Below are positions 1 through 42,266 of a DNA stretch of 42,359 nt, piece after piece. Origin of the DNA: Candidatus Parvarchaeota archaeon (GTDB taxonomy: Archaea; Nanobdellota; Nanobdellia; Parvarchaeales; Parvarchaeaceae); NCBI GenBank assembly GCA_023261805.1, contig JAGDXV010000022.1, forward strand, positions 1 through 42,359, in the 5' to 3' direction. The notes under the pieces were generated by a model. That model was not told the origin of the DNA, did not search any database, and saw only the letters and a list, made by a program, of their open reading frames with translations. The translations under genes were made by a program, and so were the position numbers. Position 1 is the first letter of the stretch; every line of letters begins with the position of its first letter.

Positions 1-2
1 GT

Positions 3-938
3 TTGCCGACGCAAGTGGAGGTCCCTGTGATAACGGATCTGTCAGACATATGTCAGGTTGCCCAGACAACATACAAACCAGGCGTAAATCTGAATATAGA
101 ACTGCAGCCAAGCGGTAATGGTTCTATTACCTTTTCTCTTTCACAAGGATTATTTAATACTCTTTGTAACAAAAACAGCAAAATATATCCTCACTCGATG
201 GCGACTTTCATTAATGACATAATCTCTGCAGGTAACAATGGCGGCGGATATGTGAGCATGCTTCTTCCCCCGCAGTATTCTCTCGGAATAACGGAGGGAA
301 ATAACGCAGATCTGTGCTTATTTCAGAATTTAATTCAGCCGGATGGAAATCCTTTCATGGTAACTGGAAATATCAGAGGAAGCAGGTTTTATCGGCAGAG
401 CGAGTATCCTATTCAGTATGGAAGGGAAGAAGTTTGTATCAATCTTACAAACATAACAAACGGCGCATACAGTATTAGTCTCTCGCCTCCTTCACAAAAT
501 TATCTCACAAATGGAAATCTCTCTTTCATCAATAATGCATCCGTCATCGGCTTTTCAATACCGGCCAATTCTTATCCAAATCCATTTTCTTTGGGCTCTC
601 CTTATGTGCAGGCTAACTATATCGCTTCAAATAGATTTTTTACTATAGAACCTTCACTCGGTATAACTTCTCCTTTATATAACACTTTTCTTTCAAAGTT
701 AGCTACCAAATTATCTCCTATGTTTTCGAGTACTGCTCAAGCAGCCATTTCAGCTTCATTCACATTCAGTTCTCCCGGTCCAGATCTTCTCTATTATCAA
801 ACAGGATACACAAATGTAACGTTTGAAGTGAATAAAATCGGAGACAATTATCAGCTAAGTTTTATATCAAATAAGATAGTGTTTGGAGTGTATCCAAATA
901 ATGATAATGAAATAGGAGGTACTTACACGCAAAGTTAG
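3..938 (+). CDS. exported/surface protein, probably truncated by the window start
   Basis: Open frame from the window edge; Asn/Ser/Tyr-rich, several NxS/T sequons (NLT, NIT, NLS); no start signal or leader visible, so the 5' end probably lies upstream. Confidence 0.6.
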   Translation: MPTQVEVPVITDLSDICQVAQTTYKPGVNLNIELQPSGNGSITFSLSQGLFNTLCNKNSKIYPHSMATFINDIISAGNNGGGYVSMLLPPQYSLGITEGNNADLCLFQNLIQPDGNPFMVTGNIRGSRFYRQSEYPIQYGREEVCINLTNITNGAYSISLSPPSQNYLTNGNLSFINNASVIGFSIPANSYPNPFSLGSPYVQANYIASNRFFTIEPSLGITSPLYNTFLSKLATKLSPMFSSTAQAAISASFTFSSPGPDLLYYQTGYTNVTFEVNKIGDNYQLSFISNKIVFGVYPNNDNEIGGTYTQS

Positions 939-941
939 GAT

Positions 942-1769
942 ATGGCTTTACCAGAGTTGATGGGGTTTGCGGATGCAGGGATACTCTTAGCAGCTTTCGC
1001 ACTGTTGCTTGTCGTTCTGTCTTACAATGTATCGCAGATCAATAGCCTTATGATATTTGCCAATGCAAAAGCATTTGTAACGGCGCTCAGCACAAGACTG
1101 GTCACCTCTCCAAACTGTTTTGCATATGAACAGCAGATGCCTTATTATAATCAGCAAGGTTACTCTGGTATTCCTGCAGACAGTGTGAGCATTCAGAGCT
1201 CTGAAACACCAGGCGTAATCAGTTTTTCAAAGTTTATCACAAATAATTTTCTTTCATGTGCTCAATACACTTATTATGGCGGTGCTACAGACGTACCCTT
1301 TAGCAAGACTCTAATACCAGATATGGTGGGTATATCCGTAACATTAACTGACACGCAGGATCCAACAGGCCTCGCTGGGCAGAGGTCGTTGACCTTGTCC
1401 AACTTTCCTCAGTATGAGTATGGATCAGCATTTGTATCCGCTGAGGAAGGTACAGCAAGGGCGGCTGAGGTCGCGGAGGCCGTGTTATTTGTAGGAAGTG
1501 TCGCAATAAATGTTGCGATAGGAGTGCTTACTGCTGGGATATCTTATGCTTCCGGTATAAATGTCAATCTCATAGGAGTACTGGGTTCAAATTCTCATAA
1601 CAGTATAGCTCCACAGTATGTTTTGTCCTATCTTTTGCTTTCAGAGAACCGGTATACAGAGTCAATACCTGTAGTGATACAATTTACCAATCCTGAAAAT
1701 CAACCAACATACACGAACTATGGTGTGATGAAGATAACAGTCTTGTACGGGACTAATTATGGAAGTTAA
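942..1769 (+). CDS. pilin-like exported protein with an N-terminal TM segment
   Basis: N-terminal hydrophobic segment (ADAGILLAAFALLLVVLSYNV) followed by RLVTSPNCFAYE...PGVISFSKF, a pattern I recall from archaeal pilin-like proteins; starts 3 nt after the upstream stop. Confidence 0.6.
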   Translation: MALPELMGFADAGILLAAFALLLVVLSYNVSQINSLMIFANAKAFVTALSTRLVTSPNCFAYEQQMPYYNQQGYSGIPADSVSIQSSETPGVISFSKFITNNFLSCAQYTYYGGATDVPFSKTLIPDMVGISVTLTDTQDPTGLAGQRSLTLSNFPQYEYGSAFVSAEEGTARAAEVAEAVLFVGSVAINVAIGVLTAGISYASGINVNLIGVLGSNSHNSIAPQYVLSYLLLSENRYTESIPVVIQFTNPENQPTYTNYGVMKITVLYGTNYGS

Positions 1770-2328
1770 TAGAAAAGGTCAGATAACACTGATAGATCTT
1801 ATTTTAGCGCCGTTGGTAGCGGTGATACTTTCGGTGATAGCTGTTATGATATTACAGGGATCCACATTTCATCTGATCAATGAGGTTAACATGGAGCCTA
1901 CTGTTGAAGCGTGCAACTTTGGACTTGAAACGCTTTTTTCTTCCTATTATGTTCATACAGCTTCTTCATTGCAATATCTTCAGTCAGCTCATCCGAATCA
2001 GTATGCGGTGGCCACGACAGAACCATTGCAGATCCAGACAGTAAGCTGCGGATATAATTGTTCTGTATCATATGAAGATATTCCTAACACATTGGGAACA
2101 TCATCAGATTTCTATGTAGATTTCATACAGTATTTCGATCCTTTTGCGTTGAGCGTTTTCAATGTTTCCGTTGGGGAAGATGCACCCGAAATGCAGGCCT
2201 TTGGGATGCAGGTGTTTTTGAATAGAGTACCTGCGTTGCCATATACACCATCAGAAGTATGCAGTCTCACTGTATTTAATCCGCAGGATCCAAGCAATCC
2301 ATATACTATCTATGGGGTGATGAGATAA
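1759..2328 (+). CDS. class III signal peptide (pilin-like) protein
   Basis: N-terminus MEVNRKGQITLIDLILAPLVAVILSVIAVMIL: basic KG|Q motif followed by a hydrophobic helix; overlaps the upstream ORF. Confidence 0.65.
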   Translation: MEVNRKGQITLIDLILAPLVAVILSVIAVMILQGSTFHLINEVNMEPTVEACNFGLETLFSSYYVHTASSLQYLQSAHPNQYAVATTEPLQIQTVSCGYNCSVSYEDIPNTLGTSSDFYVDFIQYFDPFALSVFNVSVGEDAPEMQAFGMQVFLNRVPALPYTPSEVCSLTVFNPQDPSNPYTIYGVMR

Positions 2329-5300
2329 TGAGTAAGAAAGGTCAGGTCAATATAATCGCAGTAATAGGGATGATAGCAGCGACAATAATTGCGCTGATGA
2401 ACCTGATGAACTACGTTAATGAATTAGGTCTCAGCTCAGCAATATACATAAACGCACAAAACAGCATCTATCAGGTGGCGGGGATGAAGGATTATATCCT
2501 TCAGCAAGCTCAGTACAACTTTGATAAGGCACAGTTGATGACTGGATTGAATCTTGTGCCATCAACAACTTCATGCGGTTATATAAATGGGACACAGCTA
2601 CTTCCACAATTGGGAATTCCGAAGATATACTATTGGAACACACCTTCTGGTCAGACATGCTTGCCTTACAATTCAGAGATAGAATATGCGATACTTAAGA
2701 TATTGAGTCAACCAAGCTTTTCAACGATTCCCGTGAATAACAGTCCTGACTTCAAAGAGTACATTGACATAAATTTAACACATGAGTCAGGTGATCTGTA
2801 TCAAGGTTCATTCACCTCGCCTGTTTTCAATGGGCAATATGTAATAACTTTGGATAAGTCTCAGGACACCGTCAGTGTGACCTATAATGGTAATACTGTC
2901 GCATCCGGCCCGGTTCTATCCACATATCTTTCTATCGGAAATTACTCCTTCCTTTTGGGTCCGGTTGAGAGCACAGTAACAGGAGTATTAAATCAACCGG
3001 CATATCAGGCATCTTTCTTTTCAGGGTCCTTTGTTTCTCCAAGTTCTCAGTACGGTCTGATAACTTTCAATGGTCAGCAGGCGATAGTATATAGCAACCA
3101 GACAAACGGAATGTTTTCATTCCATTTAGCTATTCTCCAAAATCCGTATGCATACACCCTTTCAGAGGCAGATGGAGGGAAAGTTTATAACCTCATAAAC
3201 GGATCAGACACGACTATAGATGGTGAGCCGTATCTTTTCCTTATTACAAACGATACAAACGGGATATTTTCCCTCTCTCCAGTTGATTACACAACTCTTG
3301 CGATCCAGCCCAATTTTGTCTTCATGAAATACCTTGTTAATTCCTTCCAATTGTCAGGTAGTCAGAATCTCCTATTCCCATCGGAAAAGAATCTGTATGT
3401 ATCCCTTTTCACATTTCCTCTGTATAATCCGCAGGTCTGTGTTTCCTCGAATGTAGGCACCTTTTCTATACAGGACTGCTTAAGTCTCGCCGGGCAGGTC
3501 TCTTCGCAGGATTATCTTAGCAATCTTTTGCAGCTGAGCATCGCCTTCGTAAATCAGTCTTTTCCTATCGGTCAGATAAGCATACAGGGCTTTCCGCAGT
3601 ATCTGATATACAATTATCTGGAAAATGTTATCCATGGCGTAAACATGAGGACGGTCTCCGTGAACGGAAGGCCGAAATATGATTGGTACTCATCATTGAT
3701 TTTTGCGATAGGGTCACCGAATGGGCAACAGTATTTGGAGAATGAGATAAGTTGTGCGAAGGAAAATTATTATGGCACTACAATATACGATTGTTCACAA
3801 ACTCCTTCCTGTCTGAGTACATGCAGAAGTGTTCTTTCACAGACCCTTGGATACGCCATCAACAATCTGCTCAGCAATCAAGAGCAGGAGGAATTAAGTT
3901 TCTTGAGCGGTTATCCATTCTCTGTGAGTGTATTGAATGTATCAGTTTCAGCAGCGGAAGCGGCCAACTGTGGAAGCGGAAGTGCATCGTACAGTTATAC
4001 ATATCAGCCCCCTTCATCAGCAGGAACATCATCAGAAGAAGTATTAGGTGTTCCCATCTCTCTTATATTTGGTTACAAAAATGGACTCAAGCTCACACCA
4101 ACTGAGGGCTGCGGTTTACAGGAGGACCCTCAAACAGCCTGTTATCCTGGCTTCTCAACCACTTTGTCTGGAAATTCCAAATCTGGTTTTGATATATTCT
4201 CTTGCTGCTCACCGATATTAGCAAACCAATTCCTAAATAGGACATGCATCGCTAACCTTGGTACGAATAACAGAGCAGTAGCAGAATACATAAACTACTC
4301 AACCGGCCCTCAAAACAACGGTATATGTAGCGCAGGGACGCAAGATGGGCAAACTTATTACTATTGCAATCATTTTATTTTTAATGAAACGAATCCCCTG
4401 TTCGAACCGCAAGGATATATATCGGATTGGGTTCTTCACAGCAATTCCTGTCCAAGTACGATAACTATCGCTGGCCAAACTTTCTCTCAAGGAAATAAGG
4501 ATTACGATATATTATCAGAATACGGCGGTGGTACAAGTCAACCGACTTACTCCCTTTACAACTGGACTTCAGCTTACATTGACAATTTGGATTTGGCAAA
4601 CATATCCGTTCACATGTCAGCAAATTTGGGCGGTGCTGCACCGAACTTAGCCGTCATATTCTCCAGCGGGAATATATCATCTTCTCAGAAGCTCAGTTCT
4701 CCAGCCTTTGCGGTCGATGTGGACATACATGACGGCTCAACCTTTGCTTATAATTCTAATGCAGGGATGATGACAAATGTAGGTGCCGGGGCCGTATACG
4801 CATCCACTGGAAATAATCAAGTGGTCGTTGATAAATCTTGTCTGTCGGGCGAGTGTACTGTGGTGGCCTACGAGAATTCAAGGGAAGCTCTGAATCAATC
4901 CTTCTCCAGCGGTAGCGAGACAGAATCGCTAGGAATATCAACAGGTTCATTACCGTCAAATGTTATTGTACCTGAGTTTTTCGTTACAAATTACTTCCCA
5001 AGCTATGCACCAAAAATAATCATATCATCATATCAGCCAGCCACATTTTTGAATCGTGGCCTGCCAAGCGCAAGTGCTTTTAATATAAGCTACAAATATT
5101 TGGGTCAGACTTACTTCAACGTGATTTCTATAGAAAACGGCAGGAAGTTACCTGCATCCTATCAGCTTGAGGTTCCCCTGACCTCACAGTTTTATGTTTC
5201 ACAGATGTTTCCCAACGAGATAAAAGTTTTTGCAGTATATTCACTTGGAAATGTTAAAGAATTAAGCTGGTGGAATGAGACACCAATCTCTGTTGGGTCT

Positions 5301-6017
5301 CCGCTATGGATAAATATCACAAACAATCCTCCAAGAACCATTTACATTGTCTATGGTCAGGGCGTTGCGTACAACAGTGATTCATACGCTGACAATGGAT
5401 CAAAAGTTTTTCCAGTCTTCTTTTCGAACATCACTCTTCCTTCATCCGAGAGCTTTTCCTTGCTTTATCCTGCAATGCCGTCAGATAATTCGACCGTCAG
5501 CAGCGCCGGACTAGTCCTTCAGCAGAATTCACCCATTCCGCCTTACATTTACAACGTAAGCAGCGGAAGGTTCTATGAGCAATTCGCCTGTGTTACGAAG
5601 TCCTCTATGCTACTCGTAAATGCTTCTTATGCATCTTCATTGCCTTCTATTAACCTTCAGGATCTTTATGGAGCATATGATCCTCTTTATCCAAATCTTT
5701 ATATAATAGGAACTTCCACCCCCTCGGCTCAAGCATCTTCTTTTGTAACAACTTTCTACGCTACCAATTTGCTGCAAGGTGCAACTTGGGAAGTAACTTA
5801 TGATGGAATAGAGAAAACGTCTACAAATCCAACCATCTCTTTCGTCACCCCTCTGGGAACTTATCCGTTTACGATAGGTGGGTCGGTTGCCATTTCTACG
5901 TGCTATGACTATTTTGGAGCTCCTTCTGTGACGAGTGGAAATGAGCTTGCTGGCGGTTCAGTCAGTGTGACCTATGATTATCATGGGGTTCCAACCCATG
6001 CTCCGGGGTGCGGATGA
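2328..6017 (+). CDS. large surface protein with class III (pilin-like) signal and DUF2341-like segment
   Basis: N-terminus MSKKGQVNIIAVIGMIAATIIALMNLMNYV; 1229 aa, many sequons and Cys; overlaps the upstream stop (TAATG). Confidence 0.7.
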   Translation: MSKKGQVNIIAVIGMIAATIIALMNLMNYVNELGLSSAIYINAQNSIYQVAGMKDYILQQAQYNFDKAQLMTGLNLVPSTTSCGYINGTQLLPQLGIPKIYYWNTPSGQTCLPYNSEIEYAILKILSQPSFSTIPVNNSPDFKEYIDINLTHESGDLYQGSFTSPVFNGQYVITLDKSQDTVSVTYNGNTVASGPVLSTYLSIGNYSFLLGPVESTVTGVLNQPAYQASFFSGSFVSPSSQYGLITFNGQQAIVYSNQTNGMFSFHLAILQNPYAYTLSEADGGKVYNLINGSDTTIDGEPYLFLITNDTNGIFSLSPVDYTTLAIQPNFVFMKYLVNSFQLSGSQNLLFPSEKNLYVSLFTFPLYNPQVCVSSNVGTFSIQDCLSLAGQVSSQDYLSNLLQLSIAFVNQSFPIGQISIQGFPQYLIYNYLENVIHGVNMRTVSVNGRPKYDWYSSLIFAIGSPNGQQYLENEISCAKENYYGTTIYDCSQTPSCLSTCRSVLSQTLGYAINNLLSNQEQEELSFLSGYPFSVSVLNVSVSAAEAANCGSGSASYSYTYQPPSSAGTSSEEVLGVPISLIFGYKNGLKLTPTEGCGLQEDPQTACYPGFSTTLSGNSKSGFDIFSCCSPILANQFLNRTCIANLGTNNRAVAEYINYSTGPQNNGICSAGTQDGQTYYYCNHFIFNETNPLFEPQGYISDWVLHSNSCPSTITIAGQTFSQGNKDYDILSEYGGGTSQPTYSLYNWTSAYIDNLDLANISVHMSANLGGAAPNLAVIFSSGNISSSQKLSSPAFAVDVDIHDGSTFAYNSNAGMMTNVGAGAVYASTGNNQVVVDKSCLSGECTVVAYENSREALNQSFSSGSETESLGISTGSLPSNVIVPEFFVTNYFPSYAPKIIISSYQPATFLNRGLPSASAFNISYKYLGQTYFNVISIENGRKLPASYQLEVPLTSQFYVSQMFPNEIKVFAVYSLGNVKELSWWNETPISVGSPLWINITNNPPRTIYIVYGQGVAYNSDSYADNGSKVFPVFFSNITLPSSESFSLLYPAMPSDNSTVSSAGLVLQQNSPIPPYIYNVSSGRFYEQFACVTKSSMLLVNASYASSLPSINLQDLYGAYDPLYPNLYIIGTSTPSAQASSFVTTFYATNLLQGATWEVTYDGIEKTSTNPTISFVTPLGTYPFTIGGSVAISTCYDYFGAPSVTSGNELAGGSVSVTYDYHGVPTHAPGCG

Positions 6018-6080
6018 AAAGATAAATATGAGATACGGGAAAAATCTTAATAGTGAGCGGCTTGGCGAACAGAATCACAA

Positions 6081-6088
6081 GGTGGTGA
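6081..6088 (+). promoter_or_regulatory. Shine-Dalgarno-like site for the giant ORF
   Basis: ggtggtga immediately 5' of ATG at 6090. Confidence 0.6.
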
Positions 6089-6089
6089 T

Positions 6090-9000
6090 ATGGCAATAAC
6101 AAGACTGAATGGTTTTCTACTGTCTATCCTTTTTTTATTAGTTATAGTTTTCGTTTTCAGTTTTTCTGCGAGTAGAAATACTGTTAATTCTACTCCTGTA
6201 GGTAACTCCATTTTATCTCCATATGTATTATCGAGCTTAAACAAAACAGTTTCAAGTGTTGATTCAATAAGCAGTCTGGATCCATCATTTTCAAATTTGA
6301 TATCCAATAATGAGTATATTTGTCCTTCTTATCCATGCGCCTTGAACAGCAGCATTTGGAACACTTACTCCCAACTTGCTGAACAATCAGGAACACTTTC
6401 AAGTATCTTCTCAATTTTAACAACCAGTATCCTTGGTATACTCTCCGTTCCTTTGAACAACGGATTCGATCAAGTTAACCAGTTTATACCAGGTGCCGTA
6501 AGTGGCACTACCTGCATTGCTCCATCCTCATTTTCTTATTATGGCCCTTTTTTGCCGTCTGGTTCGACTGACACTTCATACAGTGATTTCACGGGCTTCT
6601 TTGGATATCCTCAGGAGAGTACTATCACGCCAGAATATAATGTCAAATTTCCTTCTTTGTTTTCTGGGATAATAAATCTGACGGAAGTATTGACTTTTAA
6701 TCTAGCTGAGGGCAGTGTTAGATCTCCTTATGATGAACCAGGTTCAAAGGGAGTCTATAACATAATTGAATGGGGTCAGAGCTCGCTTCACTATTATCCT
6801 GGCACTAGTTACATGTATGCGGAGAGCACTGATGCAGATCTTTATGTGAATGCATCGCCCGGTCAATCCAGTATGATATCTGGGAACACTTTTATAGTGC
6901 CTGCAATATCTTGCGGTGCAACTGCTACTCCGCCCGTTTTAATCGGCACGACGTATGCAGTTCCTCTAACTTCCGGGTTTGTACCCGCTGTTGGTCTGGC
7001 GGCACAGTCTTCAGTAGGATCGATAGTTAAATCACTTGTTGTAAACGAGTTTTCGAGTGATGACATGTTCTGGTCTTTTTATCAGTATGAGGGCCAGTTC
7101 CCGCAGCTTGCTGTTAAAACACTGAAATCGGATTTCAACTTCACTGAGCCCTCGTTGAATTATGCCGCTTTTCCACCTGGAAACAATGGGGATTCACAAT
7201 ATATTAACAATTCAGGTTTCTTTTCGGTTCCTGTTAATGCAACTTTATTCTTTGGGCAGCAGTTTAATCAGCAGAACTTCTTTGTGTACGAAAGCAACAA
7301 TACAATTTTAACATATCAAACAAGTTCAGATACTCCATCCCTTGCAGATGCTACTAAGGTTTCAAATGTTTCAGCATATTCTGTCCCGAACTTAGTGCCT
7401 GCATATTGGCCTTTCTTAGGCGTATTCGGGGGTTCTTTTGGGTCGAGTAGCGGTCCAGATCCTGCTCTCATATACGATACTTTCAAGGTAGATGGGATTC
7501 TCCCGGTTTGTAATATCGGAAATGGGTACAGTTACTGCACCATGAACAACGCAACGAGCGTAAATCCGATATCACCATACAGGCTTTGGGATTATGAAGT
7601 TAGTGGAAATACTTATAGAACAGGATCAATGTTTGGTGGCAGAACAACAACTCAAAACATAGGAACTTGCCATAACGGAATATGTGCTGTTCAGCCGCAG
7701 TCATATTCTGAGCCGCTGAATCAAAATCCGTATGCTCCGGGTTACGATCCGAACGATGTTTACATTAATACTCTGGAAGAAGATGCTCTGAACAGTTTCT
7801 GTTTCTATGGAGATAATTTTGATACATCAACCGGAGTTTACGATTCGCCGAGCTATACAAGGATAATTCCTCCTCTTTCATCAGAGAACTACACTGTAGC
7901 TTTAGGGAAGTGTAATGGCTTTTTCAATAGCACGGATTGCTTTGGCAGTAGTAATGGGAACTATCTCAATTTTGAATCGGGAATATTTTTATCCAAAGTT
8001 TCATGTACATCAAACGGGATATATCCAACTAATGTTACAGATGCATGGATAAGCAGCGTATCGATAGCTAACAATGCTGGGCAATTCTGTGGTTACTTCG
8101 GTGGTAAGAAGGCTCCAGTGAATCCAGTGACGTTTACTGGACTAGGTCAGCTTTATGCCAACAACACAGTTTTCACCGATACGGTTTCCTCCTGTCCTAG
8201 TTTTAATAACGGTTCTGCTTATGTCAATCTACTCGTGACGGTCCAAAACGTTGGTAATTCCTACATCACTGCCCCCTATTTGTATGTTTTGTATGGAAAT
8301 GTTCAACCGAGTCAGATGTTTTATGCAGAGCAGAATACACCGCAAAATGATTACGAGCTTTATCAGACTTTTCTTCTGAACATGAACTCTCAGTCAAGTG
8401 GGCTGATCCAATTGAGATATCTTAATGGGGGACCGCAAGAAGACATGTTCTTCTCAAGGCCCGGAAATTCAGCTCAGGATATCCCTATCTCCGAACTGTT
8501 TTCTGGGGATCAGGAGTATGTAAACGGTCCATACAACAATTCGCTGTTAGGAATGTGGCTGGATTATAATGGAAAAATAATAAGGACTTCGAATACCTTT
8601 CTGTCTTACTCCAATTCAGGCAATACTTTTCCAACTGTTATAATACCTGGAGGAAAGGCATCCTTTGATATAGAAATTCCCCTTCCAGTTTTTGAGATGC
8701 TTCTGAAGAACAACGAAAAGATAGGGATATACTTTGGAAACATGTTCAATGTTAATTGGTGGAACACACAGATTGGTCAACAATACGTTCCTTCAAGCAC
8801 CTCAAACTCAACTTATACCCACAATACTGAATATCTTGATCCTTCATCTTCTTATCCTATGCCGATCTGGCAATACATAGTCGGATCGGAGATGAACATT
8901 GGAAATTCTGTTTTCAAATCCGTTTCAATCTACTCGGATAGTTTCAGTTTGTCGGTTTCGGCTGATAACAATAATGCAAGCATACTTGATTTGGGTGTCA

Positions 9001-12000
9001 GTACAAACATATTGAAATTCAATGGAAGCGGTTTGTATAACCTGACTAAGATTCAAGAGGGATCGAACGGCGTCGGTCCTTTATCAGGTTCTTCTTTGAC
9101 CTGCTTTGCTACGCAGGACAACATGAACGACTTTGACGTTTTCTGGAGCGTTCACGCGGCTTCGTCATCAAATCTTAAGTTTTTGATGGAGAAATACTAC
9201 GGTGAAAATGCCTATCAAAATGAGATAATTAATATTTGGCGTGGGCTTGTATTCATGCCGTATGCTTCGAATGTCGTTTTGAACTACAATAATCTCCCGT
9301 ACTTCCCAACTGATACGGCATCCTTTTCTCTGGAGGAGCCTGCTATTAATTCTTCTTCTACCGTGAATCAAAAGATCGGTTTCGTTTCGCTTCAGGAGAC
9401 CGGGGAACAATCCTCCCTGAAGGCGCTTTCCGATGTTTATCATACGCTAAATACGACGAGAGTGAATATTTCGCAGGCTTTTCCTACGCCAGCAAGTATG
9501 TACGGTTTCTCGATATCTGCCCTCGTCCCAATTAAAAATCAATCGATTCTGAAGATAGGCGCTATGACTCAGGTATCGAATTCTTCTCCTTTCTCCGATA
9601 TTCCGGTATCTATCACTTTGCTTAATGCTGATGGATCCACTTGTTTGTCTGGAGTGTATCCGACAGATCAGTATGGTGTTGTCAATATCACAGAAGCATG
9701 CAGTGGACTGGAAGGCGGTAAGGCCATAATTACTTCTCCTTCAGGGCCGTTCAGCGTCACAATGTATAACAATACTCCTTTGAATATCACAAATACCTCC
9801 TATAACGGAGCCATGGTTGTGGCCGGGAATTTCTCTAGCTTTTCTTCCAACAACGGGTATAGAGTTACTTTGAACTTGGCCAATTCGGTTTTCAACGGTA
9901 ATGGAGTCTCATTTACGTTCTCCTATATTCCGGAATCGTTAGTTTACAAAAATTCCTTGCTCTATCTGTATTATCTTAATGGGACTCCATTTAACTGTAA
10001 TCCCGTGGATGAAAACATCTTCGGGGTTAGCACTTTGGCTCCTGGAGAATACAGACTTTACAATGGCTCAATACTTTGTTCAATCAATTCTCCATTCAAC
10101 TATCTCCGTGCTGTCTTTTTCAACGTCACAAACGGCGCATATCTTGGTGGAGGAGACATAGAAAGTGGATTGATGATAGCATACAATCAATCTTCGCAGG
10201 GCAATTTGTTGAAGTTTTGGTATAATGGCAAGCCAGTGACTTCCCAGGACGTCAACATGTCGGAAATATTTCCATCTCAATCACCGCCATATTATACAGC
10301 AAACAGTTGTGTTCAAAACCAGCTGATCACGAATGGTGTCCTTAATCTATCTGATTCAAGTGTGTCTTCTTGCAGTTCACTGGGAAATGGGCAAAATTAT
10401 ACTATTGATTTATATGTTAGTTCTGGTGGGGTAATGACGAAGGTCTCCGCTGCAATTTTCAATCTGTCTTTGCCGGCATCGGGAAGTGGGATGATTTCGA
10501 TGTCTCCGCAAGTAGTTTTGGATGCTCCATCGGGCATACAGAACTTAACTATAAACAATCCTAGTGTACCTACCCCTGTCTTCTTCAGCGTGGCTTCAAC
10601 CGCTGTTACATCTTGCAACGACATCAGGTTAATACAACCGAGTGGAAATGCATTCCCATATGAGGAAATTCCTTTCCAGGTAGTTTCAAATGTAAGTCTA
10701 TGCGATTATGTGTTTATTGCCCGGCCATCTTTATCTGGGAGTAAGATAACATATGAAATCTATAGGTCGACGCAACCGGCGATCCCATACTCATCTAATT
10801 GGGGTAGCTTTTCGAATGATGTTTACTATTATAAAATTAAAGCTGATAACTATTCAGCGGATCTTCTTCCGAATTGTATGGCCTCTTTGGGTCCTTGTCT
10901 TTCTAATGTCACCGCTTTTGGAAAGTCTGTTGGTACTTTGCTTTTGAACAATGCTTCCGCTTATTCTACTGAAATGAGACCGGTGGCAAGCGGGCCAGTC
11001 ATGAACTGCATAGACGTTTTGTATACTTCCTCATATACATTAAAGCTTCCGGTCAGCGGGTTTGGAGGATTAAATTACAACCTTAATAGACTTTATCAGA
11101 TAGCCACTCCTTCTCAGCAGATAATAAGTTCTTACTGTTTCTTTAGAGGAAGCGACGTTATCCTTGATTATATTTCAATGACGGGCCCTCAAGTTCCGTT
11201 TAGTTTAGAAAATAAACTTAACACTACTTTCATATCTGCTCAGTCTGGAAATGGTTTATCAATGGGCCTTCCAAAGCCAATCTCTACCTCTTGCCTAAGC
11301 AGTACGACAGCTTCATATACAACGACGACTGTTGGTGTTGGTGGAAGCACAACAACCTATGTTATCTCCCCAAACTGTTTGTCAATACCTCCTCCGCCTC
11401 AAGAACCCAACATGAAAAATGTTACATTGCCAAGCTCCTATTTCAATACAGCTAATGGTCCGTTTTTCTGTCTTGGTCAAACCTATCCAACTTATACACC
11501 TCAATTTGAATTTTACTCCACTGGTACACAAGCTGATTCGTATGGAAATTACAACAATATGTCTGGCGGTCTAAGTTACCTTTATACTCCTGGTAATTAT
11601 AGTATCACAACTCAGTATGGAAATACGATATACTATGATACTTGCATACCACCGAGTGGAACTGCGGAGACTGTAAATACGCTCAATGAGCCAAAGTTCT
11701 ATTTTGGTTCTTCAATTGGGCAGCCATATGATGGCTCTTCAGGGGAAAATTATCTTGAGAAAAACGTGGCGATGACAGCGATTAAGAACACAGGTGTTTC
11801 AAGCAACATACTCTTTAATCCAAATGGCGGTGAACTCATAGGAAAGTGTCCGATCAATACATCGATAAGTGATTACACATTTTGTATCAAGCCTGTAGGA
11901 AGCCAGTACTTTTATCCAACCAATTCATATCCAGGTGGACTTGAAGGGCTTCCAAATAATCGTTCGAGTGTTTACAATTATCCAATAGGGGGCGGCTGCC

Positions 12001-14081
12001 TTGTCGATACTAATAATCCCTCAGGTCAGTATTACTGCGCACCTACTTTCGGCAATCTTAGCAATTCTTATCCAGGAAGTACTTCATATGATTCAGTCAA
12101 TGTCAGCTCTGAAGGGTCACTTCCTTATGAATGGTCAAGCAGCAAGAATTCGAATACTTTGTCTTCGCAGAGCCTTGAGGCAAGTTTCAGCTGCTCCGGT
12201 CAGGCAACTGTAGAGGAAAGCGAGTCGGTAGAGTACTATGAGTATAACACAACAACTGGCAATATACTTAATCCAGACGCAGGATCATGTACATTTTATA
12301 CGACACAGAATGAACCAGTTTCATGTAGTTATAATAATGGAATGAGCTCAGGTAGCAGATGCAGTACAAGTTTCTCAAATGGAAATCTTCAATCAGCAAT
12401 AAGCAGTCCTTCGACAGAGATCACCCTGAGTCCAGTTTCCTACTGCAAGCTTAATGAGAACCCGGCTGAGTACAGCACCTGGTACGTCTCTCCTGAATGT
12501 GCCCCTCCTCCAGGAAATGCAACTGCAGGTTATGCTTATGCAGTTTACACTTCACCAAGTGAAGCTAGAGAATCTGTCGTCAAAGTATATCCATATTCAC
12601 TGACTATATACACCACCGCCATAAGCTTGAATCAGGGTGAGAATACAACCTACTATCCAGGGGATTATTCTGATAGTTGTCAAAATGGAACCACTGCCAT
12701 AAAAGATGATGTTGGATTTGGATGGTCTTGGCATCCATATATGTCTTATGAGTTCGGTGTTTACACAACAAATCCTGATGGAATACCTTTAGTTGGTGGC
12801 TGCGAGGCGAACAGGGATACTTATGATGTAACAAATCCGACAATTTCTGTATCTACAAGTGGAAATGGATACCAATATACCTATTCCTGTCCTTCAGGCT
12901 ACTCCGGAAGCATACTGTCATGCGAAAACGAGTCAGCGTCGCGATCAGCAACTTTGAATAGCTCAGTCTTCAGTGCATCGTGTACATCAACATCCCCTGT
13001 GCTTACACAGACCACACAGCAATATTCGTCAAATTCACCGTATTATGGTGCAGCATGCACATCATGCGCCTCTCTTCCAAGCGGGGATCAGAATCTTTAT
13101 CAGCAACCGAATCCTCAAGCGTCTTGTCTTGCTCTTCCAAGGACGCAATTCAACAGTACAATGGCTCCGTATGTGCTTCAGTATTCGAATGATTCCAATA
13201 TAGGAATAGGTCTCGGAGTTTTAGGACCAAATTCAAGGTTGAATATCACTTTGCCCGGAGACACCGAGTCTACGCATAAGGATCTTTATATGACAAGTCT
13301 TTCTGAGGTGCAGACAGAAGCAGAGAATCTGTTCCTTCAGCTTTATCCTTTCTCTGCTTTGAATCAGAAAACTCTCGCATCAGGAATGGAAGAATCGTTC
13401 ATGTTTCCTTTCGATCTTCTGGATGCGTATCTCCTTCAGAATCCTTACTTTGGTGTGAGCGGCGAGCCAGGATTTATCAATGGAAGTGTATATGATGATG
13501 CAATGAATATCTTTTCAGGAGGCACACAATACAATTGTCCTAGCTCCAGCTTGAGGGGGAACTACGGAATATACGCCCTTGGAGAAGGTGTTCTTTGCGA
13601 TGGGAATAACCTGCCAAGCGACTATGTCAATGGAATCTACGCTTCATTAGGCACGTTGAATGAGGGACCACATGCTGTTCAGTTCTATAGCGTATCTGCT
13701 GGAAACAACAGCATACCTCCTACCGTTGGACTTTATAGTAGCGGCGGTCGGGCGGTTTCATTGAATACCGCTTGTTCGAATGGAAATAGCAGGTCTTTTA
13801 CGTTCTCCTATGATGGGACACAGAAGACGTTTGATATTTCATCGGATGACGAATGCGATCCAATAAACAATCTTTTGTATGGGTACATAATAAATTGCAT
13901 GTATCAGACACCGGAAAATCAGACCTATAACATAGGGTCAGTTTATTATTTAGCTTATGATCTACCAACAGTTTGGGATGTTAGTTATACCCTTCTTGTT
14001 TCTCCAAGGAGCTATAATGTTGTGCCGGTCAAGGTGAAGCTAGCGACAGGAAGCAGTGGCTCTTACATAACGATAGGCTAA
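6090..14081 (+). CDS. giant secreted/cell-surface protein (2663 aa)
   Basis: Single uninterrupted ORF; N-terminal hydrophobic anchor FLLSILFLLVIVFVFSFSAS; dense NxS/T sequons, frequent Cys, Thr-rich linker; SD-like ggtggtga before ATG. Confidence 0.8.
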   Translation: MAITRLNGFLLSILFLLVIVFVFSFSASRNTVNSTPVGNSILSPYVLSSLNKTVSSVDSISSLDPSFSNLISNNEYICPSYPCALNSSIWNTYSQLAEQSGTLSSIFSILTTSILGILSVPLNNGFDQVNQFIPGAVSGTTCIAPSSFSYYGPFLPSGSTDTSYSDFTGFFGYPQESTITPEYNVKFPSLFSGIINLTEVLTFNLAEGSVRSPYDEPGSKGVYNIIEWGQSSLHYYPGTSYMYAESTDADLYVNASPGQSSMISGNTFIVPAISCGATATPPVLIGTTYAVPLTSGFVPAVGLAAQSSVGSIVKSLVVNEFSSDDMFWSFYQYEGQFPQLAVKTLKSDFNFTEPSLNYAAFPPGNNGDSQYINNSGFFSVPVNATLFFGQQFNQQNFFVYESNNTILTYQTSSDTPSLADATKVSNVSAYSVPNLVPAYWPFLGVFGGSFGSSSGPDPALIYDTFKVDGILPVCNIGNGYSYCTMNNATSVNPISPYRLWDYEVSGNTYRTGSMFGGRTTTQNIGTCHNGICAVQPQSYSEPLNQNPYAPGYDPNDVYINTLEEDALNSFCFYGDNFDTSTGVYDSPSYTRIIPPLSSENYTVALGKCNGFFNSTDCFGSSNGNYLNFESGIFLSKVSCTSNGIYPTNVTDAWISSVSIANNAGQFCGYFGGKKAPVNPVTFTGLGQLYANNTVFTDTVSSCPSFNNGSAYVNLLVTVQNVGNSYITAPYLYVLYGNVQPSQMFYAEQNTPQNDYELYQTFLLNMNSQSSGLIQLRYLNGGPQEDMFFSRPGNSAQDIPISELFSGDQEYVNGPYNNSLLGMWLDYNGKIIRTSNTFLSYSNSGNTFPTVIIPGGKASFDIEIPLPVFEMLLKNNEKIGIYFGNMFNVNWWNTQIGQQYVPSSTSNSTYTHNTEYLDPSSSYPMPIWQYIVGSEMNIGNSVFKSVSIYSDSFSLSVSADNNNASILDLGVSTNILKFNGSGLYNLTKIQEGSNGVGPLSGSSLTCFATQDNMNDFDVFWSVHAASSSNLKFLMEKYYGENAYQNEIINIWRGLVFMPYASNVVLNYNNLPYFPTDTASFSLEEPAINSSSTVNQKIGFVSLQETGEQSSLKALSDVYHTLNTTRVNISQAFPTPASMYGFSISALVPIKNQSILKIGAMTQVSNSSPFSDIPVSITLLNADGSTCLSGVYPTDQYGVVNITEACSGLEGGKAIITSPSGPFSVTMYNNTPLNITNTSYNGAMVVAGNFSSFSSNNGYRVTLNLANSVFNGNGVSFTFSYIPESLVYKNSLLYLYYLNGTPFNCNPVDENIFGVSTLAPGEYRLYNGSILCSINSPFNYLRAVFFNVTNGAYLGGGDIESGLMIAYNQSSQGNLLKFWYNGKPVTSQDVNMSEIFPSQSPPYYTANSCVQNQLITNGVLNLSDSSVSSCSSLGNGQNYTIDLYVSSGGVMTKVSAAIFNLSLPASGSGMISMSPQVVLDAPSGIQNLTINNPSVPTPVFFSVASTAVTSCNDIRLIQPSGNAFPYEEIPFQVVSNVSLCDYVFIARPSLSGSKITYEIYRSTQPAIPYSSNWGSFSNDVYYYKIKADNYSADLLPNCMASLGPCLSNVTAFGKSVGTLLLNNASAYSTEMRPVASGPVMNCIDVLYTSSYTLKLPVSGFGGLNYNLNRLYQIATPSQQIISSYCFFRGSDVILDYISMTGPQVPFSLENKLNTTFISAQSGNGLSMGLPKPISTSCLSSTTASYTTTTVGVGGSTTTYVISPNCLSIPPPPQEPNMKNVTLPSSYFNTANGPFFCLGQTYPTYTPQFEFYSTGTQADSYGNYNNMSGGLSYLYTPGNYSITTQYGNTIYYDTCIPPSGTAETVNTLNEPKFYFGSSIGQPYDGSSGENYLEKNVAMTAIKNTGVSSNILFNPNGGELIGKCPINTSISDYTFCIKPVGSQYFYPTNSYPGGLEGLPNNRSSVYNYPIGGGCLVDTNNPSGQYYCAPTFGNLSNSYPGSTSYDSVNVSSEGSLPYEWSSSKNSNTLSSQSLEASFSCSGQATVEESESVEYYEYNTTTGNILNPDAGSCTFYTTQNEPVSCSYNNGMSSGSRCSTSFSNGNLQSAISSPSTEITLSPVSYCKLNENPAEYSTWYVSPECAPPPGNATAGYAYAVYTSPSEARESVVKVYPYSLTIYTTAISLNQGENTTYYPGDYSDSCQNGTTAIKDDVGFGWSWHPYMSYEFGVYTTNPDGIPLVGGCEANRDTYDVTNPTISVSTSGNGYQYTYSCPSGYSGSILSCENESASRSATLNSSVFSASCTSTSPVLTQTTQQYSSNSPYYGAACTSCASLPSGDQNLYQQPNPQASCLALPRTQFNSTMAPYVLQYSNDSNIGIGLGVLGPNSRLNITLPGDTESTHKDLYMTSLSEVQTEAENLFLQLYPFSALNQKTLASGMEESFMFPFDLLDAYLLQNPYFGVSGEPGFINGSVYDDAMNIFSGGTQYNCPSSSLRGNYGIYALGEGVLCDGNNLPSDYVNGIYASLGTLNEGPHAVQFYSVSAGNNSIPPTVGLYSSGGRAVSLNTACSNGNSRSFTFSYDGTQKTFDISSDDECDPINNLLYGYIINCMYQTPENQTYNIGSVYYLAYDLPTVWDVSYTLLVSPRSYNVVPVKVKLATGSSGSYITIG

Positions 14082-38403: not shown

Positions 38404-39345
38404 TTATCTAAACTTGTCATAGAATGCGGTCCAATTGTAATATCCGCATATGTCTCCCGCTTTTTCATTTGCATTGCATATCGCTGCTATTATCATATCT
38501 GCCTCTATTCTCATCGCAACGGAATAAGCATCATCTTCTCCATACATGGCCTTTTGTGCCAGCTCGGTTGCATTCTGCGAGATGTTCATCGGTGCCAGTG
38601 CTGTCAGAGCTCCATTCATATAAACACCAGCAAAACTTTCGAGAGGAGTGCCGAAGGCATTGTTCACTATCGCCCCGTTTTTGACTCCAAGAGCATACAA
38701 GGGTTCAAATTCAGGATAAGCCTCGAGCATCTGCTGGGCAGGAGGGGGATAGAATCCATAGGGCATATAATACTCAACACTGTTGAATTGAACTGTCTTG
38801 GAACGGTATGTGTTTCCGACCATGAATTTGAGGGTAGTTTCATTCGTTTTCCCTTGGATCGATTCATTAGTCAGCGTTCCATTTTTGAGCCAGTAGACGA
38901 CGGGAACGGTAACATTTTTCTCCCCAAATAGGAATTCGGGAAGATTTCCATCACCGTATGAATATGAATCTATCAGGGACGAGAAGTTTCCAAACTGGTC
39001 TAATGCGATCACAAGTCCAACGCTCAATCTGGCGCAGAACTGGCAGTTTGTCATGCTGGCCAAATAAACCATCACCTTCCCATCGGTGTTATTGATCATC
39101 AACCCATCATTTTGAGACTTGGGGATGAAAATATCATACTGATTAGCCGTTATTTTTCCGCTCATAAGGGCGTTCGCCGTTGTTATCAGGTTGCTGGACA
39201 CATTATCTGAAGGCTGCGTTTGGTAATAGCTTGCATGGTATAGGAATTCATAAGTTGCAAATATCACAACTAAGACAGCCAAAGCGGCTATCACGGCGAT
39301 CACAATCAGCCTTGTTCTTCCTTTCGCACTTTTATTTTCCTCCAT
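38404..39345 (-). CDS. membrane-anchored thioredoxin-fold protein, DUF929-like
   Basis: N-terminal TM; KVMVYLASMTNCQFCARLSVGLVIALDQFGNFSSL CxxC context resembling DUF929; sequons downstream of the TM. Confidence 0.7.
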   Translation of the reverse strand: MEENKSAKGRTRLIVIAVIAALAVLVVIFATYEFLYHASYYQTQPSDNVSSNLITTANALMSGKITANQYDIFIPKSQNDGLMINNTDGKVMVYLASMTNCQFCARLSVGLVIALDQFGNFSSLIDSYSYGDGNLPEFLFGEKNVTVPVVYWLKNGTLTNESIQGKTNETTLKFMVGNTYRSKTVQFNSVEYYMPYGFYPPPAQQMLEAYPEFEPLYALGVKNGAIVNNAFGTPLESFAGVYMNGALTALAPMNISQNATELAQKAMYGEDDAYSVAMRIEADMIIAAICNANEKAGDICGYYNWTAFYDKFR

Positions 39346-40155: not shown

Positions 40156-40419
40156 ATGCAGTTTGAAGATATAGCTGAGCCGAACGAATTGATCGTCAGA
40201 GAGGGCTCCAACAATTTCATAAAGATAAACATGACAAAAGGAAAGGAAGGAGACAGGGAGATAACTTTTATAAGCATCAAGAAGGGTTATTATGTTGATG
40301 TAAACGGTAAAAAGCAGGAAAGGATAAAAACAAGCCTTTCCGTGAATTTCGACGAGTTACCTCTTCTGATAGAGGCACTGTCATCATTTAAGAAAAAACT
40401 TGAGTCAAGCACATTTTGA
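40156..40419 (+). CDS. small conserved-looking protein, possibly PC4-like
   Basis: 87 aa; FIKINMTKGKEGDREITFISIKKGYYVDVNGKKQERIKTSLSV beta-rich pattern; promoter in place. Confidence 0.55.
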   Translation: MQFEDIAEPNELIVREGSNNFIKINMTKGKEGDREITFISIKKGYYVDVNGKKQERIKTSLSVNFDELPLLIEALSSFKKKLESSTF

Positions 40420-42266
40420 TGCTTATGAATAAAATAATTTACGTATTGTTGTTTGTCGTAGCTTTATCACTAATAGGGGTCTCGCACGCGTCTCCATCAA
40501 ATCTGACTGTGATTGGAAAAGCAGGCCTCTACATCTTCGGCGTGACCCAAGAGCCGAATGGAACGATGGTCGGTGTACCCGCTATGCTTAATCTTACCGT
40601 CACGAAGGGGACAGGGCAGATATATATAGGTTCAACCCCCTTGACAGGCACGGATACACAAGCACAGGCAGTCATATCAACGGATGTTGCGTGTAGGTTA
40701 TTAAATGTCAACTGTAATCAGTATAATTTCTATTATTTCATCACCTCCTTTTCCCCAGAAGTGAGCGGGCCGAGCGCCGGTGGCGCTTTCACCATCGCCG
40801 CCATGTCGATTCTATCTGGTAAGCCGTTAAATCCGAATGTAGCGATGACGGGTACAGCGAATCCGGATGGGAGTGTCGGGATTGTCGGGGACGTATCTGA
40901 GAAGAGTGAGGCAGCTGCTCTTCAGGGGATAAAGATCTTCCTCTATCCTTCGACTGACAACGTATCTTCGAGCGCTGAATCTTTTGATCAGGCCCGTGGA
41001 ATGGAGACGATTCCCATAAGCACGATAGATCAGGCCTTCGAATATTTTACAGGCTATAGCGTGTATCAACCATTAAATTCTAGCATCTATACACCGTTTT
41101 ACAATGCGGTCATGAACAGGACATACTATGTAATTTCTTCCTATCAAACCCAGCTTTATGATAGCCTCCCAAGCGTCACGCCTAGCAATCAGACGGCTGA
41201 GTACTACATAACAACCGCGCAGAACGCCATCACTAGGGAGAGGAGTCTTTATTCGGAAGGCGATGCATACGATGCGGCTAGCCTGGCTATAAATACTTCC
41301 ATCCCCGATCTTGTGATGGCTAGAGTGATCGAATCAAGCGGCGGAAATCTCCAGTCTTATCTCAGTTCTTTAATCAATCAAGAATATGGACAGATCTCCT
41401 CGACTTACAATAATGTAACTCAAGACTACGTAACAAATTCCTCCGATCTCGATCTGAAGTTGATTGCTGTGGATAGACTTGCCCAGGCCAGTTATCTCCT
41501 GAACGCATCAAATTCCTCCCTGTCATCGAATCTCTCCCAGGCCCTTTATTACTACGCTCTTGCGAACACGAAGCGCGTCTCGGCTGTTTTTTGGGTTTCT
41601 ATTCTGCCAAGGGGCCATGTTTCGTTCAGTCAGGATTCATTTTATAATTACAGCTCCTATTATCTGTATAAAGCCTCTTCCTATGCCGATTATTCAGCGC
41701 TTCTGGGCGTGAATTCCCCGGATCAGATTTCACTGATGAATTATTATCTTAACAAGGCAAATAATTATTATAATGAAGGTCAGTATATACCATCGATCTT
41801 CGATTCTATTGAGGCGTTAGGGGTGTCACAATTGATAATAGAGGAAAACAGTGTGATAAATGGCTCCTTTGCTCCTATAAACTCTCAGCTTGCAAACATG
41901 GCCTTAGCATCCATAGACAACGCTGAAAGAGCAGGGGTCACGCCGTTCCTTGGAATAAGTTATTATCAGTATGCTCAGAGCTTCTCCCCTGATACAGGAG
42001 AGGCGTATCTGATACAATTCTATGCAAATTCTATGCTGTACTCGGAGTTTGAGGAAGACCTTGTCAGCGGTGCTACATTGAAAAGTGTGGCACTTGTTCC
42101 TTCATCTGCTCCTGTTCAGAATGTTTACACATTTCAGCCTGGAGACGCATATATTTTATATTTCCTCTTCATAGTTTCACTCATAATAATCGCTCTTAAA
42201 TTGATCTCAGAAAACAGATTTCATCCTGTAAGCAAAAATAAGAAAACCAGGCATCAAAAACACTGA
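40416..42266 (+). CDS. exported, membrane-anchored Lon-like Ser/Lys protease (COG1750-like), no AAA domain
   Basis: Signal peptide; SGPSAGGAFTIAAMSILSG and GIVGDVSEKSEAAALQGIKIFLYP match the Lon Ser/Lys dyad regions; C-terminal TM + basic tail. Confidence 0.87.
   Translation: MMLMNKIIYVLLFVVALSLIGVSHASPSNLTVIGKAGLYIFGVTQEPNGTMVGVPAMLNLTVTKGTGQIYIGSTPLTGTDTQAQAVISTDVACRLLNVNCNQYNFYYFITSFSPEVSGPSAGGAFTIAAMSILSGKPLNPNVAMTGTANPDGSVGIVGDVSEKSEAAALQGIKIFLYPSTDNVSSSAESFDQARGMETIPISTIDQAFEYFTGYSVYQPLNSSIYTPFYNAVMNRTYYVISSYQTQLYDSLPSVTPSNQTAEYYITTAQNAITRERSLYSEGDAYDAASLAINTSIPDLVMARVIESSGGNLQSYLSSLINQEYGQISSTYNNVTQDYVTNSSDLDLKLIAVDRLAQASYLLNASNSSLSSNLSQALYYYALANTKRVSAVFWVSILPRGHVSFSQDSFYNYSSYYLYKASSYADYSALLGVNSPDQISLMNYYLNKANNYYNEGQYIPSIFDSIEALGVSQLIIEENSVINGSFAPINSQLANMALASIDNAERAGVTPFLGISYYQYAQSFSPDTGEAYLIQFYANSMLYSEFEEDLVSGATLKSVALVPSSAPVQNVYTFQPGDAYILYFLFIVSLIIIALKLISENRFHPVSKNKKTRHQKH

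Follow-up and report, generated by a model that had tools for sequence, protein, structure and literature searches.

A conserved five-gene cassette in Parvarchaeales proposed to encode the giant-headed tip of a type IV pilus

Tips of type IV pili (T4P) that contain minor pilins are known from bacteria. The T4aP tip of P. aeruginosa and M. xanthus contains the minor pilins FimU, PilV, PilW and PilX plus the much larger, Sec-secreted PilY1, and four minor pilins plus one large adhesin is the make-up of the M. xanthus tip (PMC11046646). In Streptococcus sanguinis, the modular minor pilins PilA, PilB and PilC include a minor pilin with a lectin-type module. In Myxococcus, the Kil/Tad minor pilins (KilL-KilM-KilN; TadE/F/G) are of graded size, the largest with extra domains, and form a tip that acts on a partner cell (PMC12075869). 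Among archaea, methanococcal T4P loci encode several class III minor pilins and a large DUF2341 protein (arCOG03508) proposed as the tip adhesin (Makarova et al., 2016; PMC4858521). Highly diverged T4P pilin islands have also been reported from DPANN genomes (PMC6393860), and the T4P 'dark matter islands' (Makarova 2019, Fig. 2A) contain diverged pilin-like proteins with signal peptides together with FlaI/TadC genes.

Here, a window of 42,359 nucleotides from a Parvarchaeales archaeon was analyzed, the window being the whole stretch of DNA examined. Five consecutive genes on the + strand were identified at its start, the first of which is cut by the contig end (Table 1). The frame of ORF1 runs from position 3 and is open at the first base of the contig. 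ORF1 and ORF2 are 3 bp apart, ORF2 and ORF3 overlap by 11 bp, and ORF3 and ORF4 overlap by 1 bp. ORF5 follows after a 72 bp gap, with GGTGGTGA just before its ATG. Promoter and terminator scans, which use bacterial consensus sequences, were at chance level.

Table 1. Positions of the five genes and of segments within ORF4 and ORF5 in the window.
Position	Strand	Feature	Description
1..938	+	ORF1	C-terminal ~311 aa only; aligns to residues ~488-805 of 809-aa relatives; relatives are ~800-1290 aa with class III prepilin leader (K/R)(K/T)AQ|IVIGI
942..1769	+	ORF2	275 aa; most conserved subunit; one N-terminal TM helix; conserved CFAY motif; Ala at -1 kept but no basic residue (relatives in other families have KKAQ/MLKAQ)
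1759..2328	+	ORF3	189 aa; smallest pilin-like subunit; class III prepilin leader NRKG|QITLIDLILAP
2328..6017	+	ORF4	1229 aa; class III leader KKG|QVNIIAVIG; predicted long N-terminal helix (low confidence) and beta-rich ectodomain
2751..3317	+	ORF4, predicted N-terminal beta domain	Residues ~142-330 (AF2 pLDDT ~75-85)
4245..5357	+	ORF4, predicted C-terminal beta region	Residues ~640-1010 (mostly pLDDT 60-86); LamG/ConA-like and DUF2341 signals come from this family; Foldseek does not report which query segment matches lectins
5247..5429	+	ORF4, DUF2341-like segment	About residues 974-1034, transferred from relatives by alignment
5703..6014	+	ORF4, C-terminal repeat module	~80-100 aa; in genus g2 the same module is tandemly repeated at the C-terminus of ORF5 instead
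6090..14081	+	ORF5	2663 aa (2550-4016 aa in relatives); Cys-rich (54 Cys); N-terminal hydrophobic segment; clear Sec signal peptide in family f13; PilY1-like position
7677..9389	+	ORF5, best-conserved core	Residues ~530-1100
12627..14078	+	ORF5, conserved C-terminal region	Residues ~2180-2663; also matched in families f13 and f19

The original prediction described these genes as encoding exported, Asn/Ser/Tyr-rich proteins with pilin-type leaders, many NxS/T sequons and no recognisable enzyme domain. Our analysis confirms this description with two qualifications. The N+S+T+Y content of the five proteins is 27–38%, compared with about 10–28% in nearly all other ORFs of the window, and charged residues account for 9–11%, compared with roughly 25–35% in cytoplasmic neighbours. 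No enzyme domain was found. The high number of sequons, however, is mainly a result of composition. Observed against shuffled counts are 6 vs 6.0 for ORF1, 1 vs 3.1 for ORF2, 2 vs 1.6 for ORF3, 24 vs 18.6 (sd 3.7) for ORF4 and 64 vs 50.0 (sd 6.0) for ORF5, and we do not take these counts as proof of glycosylation. In addition, pilin-type leaders do not fit all five proteins. ORF3 and ORF4 are the only two of 41 window ORFs that match a class III-like motif, with a basic residue, Gly/Ala at -1, Gln at +1 and a following hydrophobic helix. Full-length ORF1 of relatives also carries such a leader (KKA|QIVIGIG). The leader of ORF2 is degenerate in Parvarchaeales, whereas the basic residue is present in the genomes designated G043, G036 and G276. 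ORF5 has an ordinary, Sec-type N-terminus.

The five genes form a conserved unit. Of 23 named Parvarchaeales contigs, 20 carry all five genes in the same order, and the other three run into contig ends. The genes are conserved at about 40–47% identity across the family and evolve under strong purifying selection (dN/dS 0.015–0.15; 0.015–0.036 for ORF2), indicating that the open frames are genes and not chance. A search of genome contigs with the single ORF4 protein of the window found nothing, whereas the alignment query worked. Three genomes (G002, G003 and G021) lack the cassette, but all three also lack a match to the adjacent CCA tRNA nucleotidyltransferase, so an assembly gap is a simpler reading than loss. 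Three others (G010, G025 and G027) carry only pieces.

Profiles of ORF1 to ORF4 match the corresponding position, and only that position, in five further families of the class. For ORF1/2/3/4, P is 94.6/96.2/91.7/97.3 in families f4, f6 and f9, and 98.9/99.8/92.6/99.7 in families f13 and f19, where ORF5 also matches (97.4). Off-diagonal matches are at most 14%. The ORF2 family reaches 33 genera, including compact pilin clusters without giants. In the compact clusters of families f36 and f61, the equally placed genes are the best of their rows for ORF3 and ORF4 but only with P=21, and homology is not claimed. In several more distant families, the cluster sits next to short KAQGLPxNxIVL pilin-like genes. 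It is possible that the genes are linked merely by descent and encode independent membrane-anchored surface proteins, since DPANN genomes carry many surface proteins and both DUF2341 and the repeat module also occur in unrelated stand-alone proteins. This is very unlikely, however, because order, orientation and tight spacing are kept across six or more families despite roughly 20% identity.

The genome also encodes T4P assembly proteins. A Peptidase_A24 prepilin peptidase was identified at G000:C30:718-1053 (genome:contig:positions; E 2.3e-11), and a match was found in all 15 genomes tested, over the cut-off in 14. A T2SSE assembly ATPase (E 4e-35) and two T2SSF proteins (TadC/FlaJ platform; E 6e-14) are encoded in tandem at G000:C9. 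These ATPase and platform genes are not beside the cassette in Parvarchaeales, unlike in the methanococcal loci. No link to an archaellum (FlaH/FlaF/FlaG/FlaJ) was found, with no Pfam-recognised archaellum gene among the cassette proteins and neighbours scanned. The position of the ATPase and platform genes would also be compatible with a static cell-envelope complex, such as an S-layer-like coat or adhesin patch, that uses pilin-type anchors and prepilin peptidase processing but is never assembled on a filament. Very large ectodomains would be bulky on a thin filament, S-layer proteins have been predicted among T4P-linked genes (PMC4858521), and ARMAN contacts include 'Velcro-like' surface densities (PMC4110969). 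We consider this alternative unlikely. Class III leaders on three subunits imply removal of the cytoplasmic leader for polymerisation, the same cluster adjoins small pilins in other families, and one copy per genome and the 4:1 pilin/giant make-up suit a low-copy tip rather than a coat.

ORF4 shows signals of adhesin domains. DUF2341, the domain linked to T4P adhesins by Makarova et al. (PMC4858521), was matched in 4 of 9 ORF4 members (best E 3.3e-4) and lies above Pfam's cut-off in genome G006 (24.5 vs 23.4 bits), whereas the ORF4 of the window itself was not matched at E≤1. DUF2341 also occurs in many other Parvarchaeales surface proteins, so it is not tip-specific. The predicted structure of ORF4 has helices at residues 3–32 and 39–73 followed by beta domains, but it is of moderate quality (mean pLDDT 56), and the helix pLDDT is only ~30–40. 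A Foldseek search with this model found CBM66, galectins, legume lectins and the S. sanguinis T4P minor pilin PilC (7oa8; E 5e-4). The PilC chain in the PDB is 376 residues, whereas ORF4 is 1140–1570 aa and unrelated in sequence, and the S. sanguinis system has no separate giant protein. In the Parvarchaeales cassette, the DUF2341 signal lies within a prepilin with predicted lectin-like folds, and ORF1, ORF2, ORF3 and ORF5 match no Pfam family, in contrast to the methanococcal loci.

The make-up of the cassette, with four minor pilin-like proteins and one much larger protein encoded directly after them, resembles that of the bacterial T4aP tip, but no sequence homology was detectable. ORF5 is two to three times larger than PilY1, the leaders are class III rather than bacterial, and ORF4 itself appears to carry the adhesin domains. 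The conserved C-terminal beta-propeller of the PilY1 family (Pfam Neisseria_PilC) was not found in ORF5 by Pfam searches of the whole protein (E≤1) and of 19 homologous fragments (E≤0.1); the model of residues 150–1100 was unusable (pLDDT 36), and the C-terminal region was not modelled. The Kil/Tad tips have three subunits in four paralogous sets, compared with four plus one in a single copy here. Four minor pilin-like subunits also recall GspH-I-J-K, and ORF5 has a Sec-type N-terminus. The cassette could thus be the pseudopilus and docking part of a T2SS-like secretion or DNA-uptake-like machine with ORF5 as a secreted cargo or receptor, as host-dependent archaea need uptake of nutrients and DNA. 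This reading is improbable, since lectin-like domains and giant variable ectodomains point to adhesion, and no nuclease, DNA-binding or channel protein was linked to the cassette among the proteins scanned.

Taken together, we propose, with a probability of about 0.6, that the cassette encodes the priming and adhesive tip complex of a type IV pilus. In this model, ORF1 to ORF4 are minor pilins: class III prepilins cleaved by the Peptidase_A24 enzyme, although ORF2 lacks a canonical leader in Parvarchaeales. Their N-terminal helices would bundle in the membrane and start the filament. ORF5 would be a giant Sec-exported protein held at the outermost end, as PilY1 is by PilX. The T2SSE ATPase and the two TadC/FlaJ platform proteins would then push the complex outward on a filament of stand-alone pilins. 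The lectin-like and DUF2341 modules of ORF4, ORF5 and the swappable repeat modules would bind surface glycans of the host or partner archaeon. Incorporation in a pilus, the tip position, the glycan ligand and host attachment are inferred. These results support the original prediction of one exported assembly with small pilin-like and very large subunits, and sharpen it to four minor-pilin-like proteins plus one Sec-type giant. The locus had also been called undescribed-looking, which holds as far as we could search. No Pfam, NCBIfam or PDB sequence family was found to cover ORF1, ORF2, ORF3 or ORF5, and we found no paper describing this cassette. A broader reading, which remains tentative, is that the cassette belongs to a class-wide, previously unnamed type IV filament subsystem of Nanoarchaeota, in which an ancestral compact minor-pilin cluster anchored by the ORF2 (CFAY) family was remodelled in host-dependent acidophiles into a giant, modular, lectin-bearing host-recognition tip, with domains shuffled between ORF4 and ORF5.

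How DPANN archaea recognise and hold their hosts is an open question. Cryo-ET shows ARMAN cells joined to Thermoplasmatales by pili-like fibres and surface contacts (PMC4110969), but no ARMAN adhesin was named in the papers we read. The cassette is a good candidate for how these tiny parasitic or symbiotic cells grab their hosts. It is a large coding investment for a small genome (14 kb of a 547 kb assembly, about 2.6%), is kept in practically every relative where the region is assembled, and names five proteins and testable domains. It also suggests how a pilus tip can be enlarged by adding and swapping domains.

Five consecutive frames fill the first 14 kb of the window, which corresponds to contig C15 of a 546,589-base draft genome in 33 contigs, with spacings of 3 bp, -11 bp, -1 bp and 72 bp between successive frames. 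These five frames are separated by composition from the ribosomal and other housekeeping genes that fill most of the rest of the window. The numbers of sequons are close to what composition gives, with a modest excess only in ORF4 and ORF5. Among 41 window ORFs, a scan for a class III prepilin-like motif picked out exactly ORF3 and ORF4. Elsewhere in the window, a 616-aa protein with an N-terminal signal-like segment, a Lon_C (S16 protease) domain (E 3.4e-10) and a C-terminal TM segment is an apparently extracytoplasmic Lon-type protein. A 313-aa membrane-anchored protein has a CxxC (NCQFCARL) motif and the densest sequons of the window, and is possibly a thiol-disulfide oxidoreductase that could serve the Cys-rich ORF4 and ORF5.

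Coordinates of the cassette genes and of other features in the window and in related loci (L numbers)
Sequence	Coordinates	Strand	Feature
Window	3-938	+	ORF1, open at the contig start
Window	942-1769	+	ORF2
Window	1759-2328	+	ORF3
Window	2328-6017	+	ORF4
Window	6090-14081	+	ORF5
Window	38404-39345	-	Membrane-anchored CxxC protein
Window	40416-42266	+	Lon_C domain protein
L045	16197-18808		Example of tandem copies of the ~80-aa repeat in a very large frame
L065	988-2364		With the frame before it, ORF1 in two frames
L121	1-289, 2866-3987, 12906-14078		Examples of matches to the pilin-type N-terminus

An alignment of ORF4 was used to retrieve homologous contigs, which are named Candidatus Parvarchaeota or Nanoarchaeota MAGs and Candidatus Rehaiarchaeum fermentans, i.e. 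Parvarchaeales, the ARMAN-4/5 group. ORF4 and ORF5 homologues occur in most genomes of the family. In 20 of the 23 retrieved contigs, ORF1-ORF2-ORF3-ORF4-ORF5 follow each other on one strand, and the remaining three contigs end inside the cassette. In one MAG (locus L065), ORF1 appears as frames of 299 and 459 aa, which may reflect a frameshift, an assembly error or a true split. The upstream neighbours in genus g2 (a genus label of this analysis) and Rehaiarchaeum are a CCA tRNA nucleotidyltransferase and a DEAD/Lhr-type helicase, while the downstream neighbours are an adenosine-specific kinase and a Holliday-junction-related endonuclease, as in the window. Three genomes without the cassette also lack the neighbouring tRNA nucleotidyltransferase, so an assembly gap is likely. 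Between three related species, dN/dS is 0.015-0.036 for ORF2, 0.04-0.08 for ORF3 and ORF4, and 0.07-0.15 for ORF1 and ORF5, although synonymous sites are near saturation in some pairs. The genes are functional, and ORF2 looks like the structural core and ORF1 and ORF5 the faster exterior.

Searches of the class with ORF4 and then ORF2 profiles retrieved the cluster from seven further families (here designated f13, f19, f4, f6, f9, f12 and f14). Profile-profile comparison with Parvarchaeales-only profiles gave matches only on the diagonal. For f4+f6+f9, position -1 relative to the ORF2 homologue matches ORF1 (P 94.6), position 0 matches ORF2 (96.2), position +1 matches ORF3 (91.7) and position +2 matches ORF4 (97.3). 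For f13+f19, the corresponding values are 98.9, 99.8, 92.6 and 99.7, and position +3 matches ORF5 (97.4). Off-diagonal values are at most 14. In f12+f14, only ORF2 is secure (97.1). Clusters containing ORF2 in f12, f14 and a further family, f2 (loci L154, L155 and L156), have other large neighbours (about 1000-1600 aa) whose relation to ORF4 and ORF5 could not be shown, and in L156 the large genes lie upstream of ORF2 instead of downstream. In families f36 and f61, only ORF2 is recognisable (P 96.9), inside a compact cluster of pilin-like proteins of about 100-400 aa with KKG/KKA leaders and no giants in the pilin-like positions. The ORF2 family was found in 58 of 376 class genomes, representing 33 genera, and a search of the phylum added no other class. 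The Parvarchaeales cassette thus looks like an enlarged version of an older pilin cluster, although the direction of that change is inferred without a tree.

ORF4 members match DUF2341 (4 of 9, best E 3.3e-4) and Laminin_G_3 (1 of 9, 7.6e-4). One member passes the DUF2341 curated threshold, but the window's own copy does not match. An AlphaFold2 model of ORF4 residues 1-1131 has beta domains at residues 142-330 and 640-1010 with pLDDT mostly 60-86, whereas the mean of the whole is 56. The PDB neighbours of this model are ConA-like lectin folds (CBM66, galectins, and legume lectins including one from Methanocaldococcus jannaschii) and the minor pilin PilC of S. sanguinis. The E-values are modest (1e-4 to 1e-3), the matching query segment is not reported by the structure search, and some listed hits (RyR2, coronavirus spikes) look like spurious whole-chain alignments. 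A module of about 80 aa at the ORF4 C-terminus of the window, not recognised by Pfam in ORF4, recurs as several copies at the C-terminus of ORF5 in genus g2 and in other very large proteins, representing domain movement between the two giant subunits. Other very large frames (about 3900-4700 aa) carry many tandem copies of this repeat, some with DUF2341, as in locus L045 and in contigs of five genomes (G019:C5, G022:C13, G023:C17, G013:C19 and G030:C19).

A T2SSE ATPase gene and two T2SSF platform genes, in tandem on contig C9 of the window's genome, and one Peptidase_A24 gene were identified. A trio of the same sizes and order is present in the genomes G004, G005 and G014. Stand-alone pilin-like proteins with a SALEYMMTYGWAIL N-terminus are numerous in genus g2 (up to 31 matches in one genome) and weakly present in the window's genome (2 matches), and are inferred to be the likely filament subunits. 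In the genomes G006, G005, G014, G009 and other Parvarchaeales genomes, up to 31 matches per sub-megabase genome to one 48-aa SALEYMMTYGWAIL pilin-type N-terminus, often 75-98% identical, are located on frames of very different length. Several of them lie at contig ends, suggesting that the repeats break assemblies. These matches possibly represent a pilin cassette or antigenic-variation system.

DUF2341 proteins and minor pilins have been described in methanococcal T4P loci (Makarova et al., 2016; PMC4858521), and diverged T4P-like islands have been noted in DPANN (Makarova et al., 2019; PMC6393860). The Parvarchaeales genome paper mentions pilA-type pilins and, in one Rehaiarchaeum MAG, archaellum genes (PMC10134863), but no such cassette in the passages found. 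We found no paper describing the five-gene cassette, in a search limited to the main text of open-access papers.

Four prepilin-like proteins plus one giant Sec-type protein, present in single copy alongside complete T4P machinery and lectin-like domains, are best read as a priming/tip complex, although none of this is shown experimentally for this cassette. In M. xanthus, the T4aP tip is composed of four minor pilins plus PilY1 (PMC11046646). In S. sanguinis, minor pilins carry lectin and VWA modules. In Myxococcus Kil pili, minor-pilin tips act on prey cells (PMC12075869). ARMAN cells are seen connected to Thermoplasmatales by pili-like fibres (PMC4110969), which makes host attachment the natural, though inferred, function of the putative tip complex.
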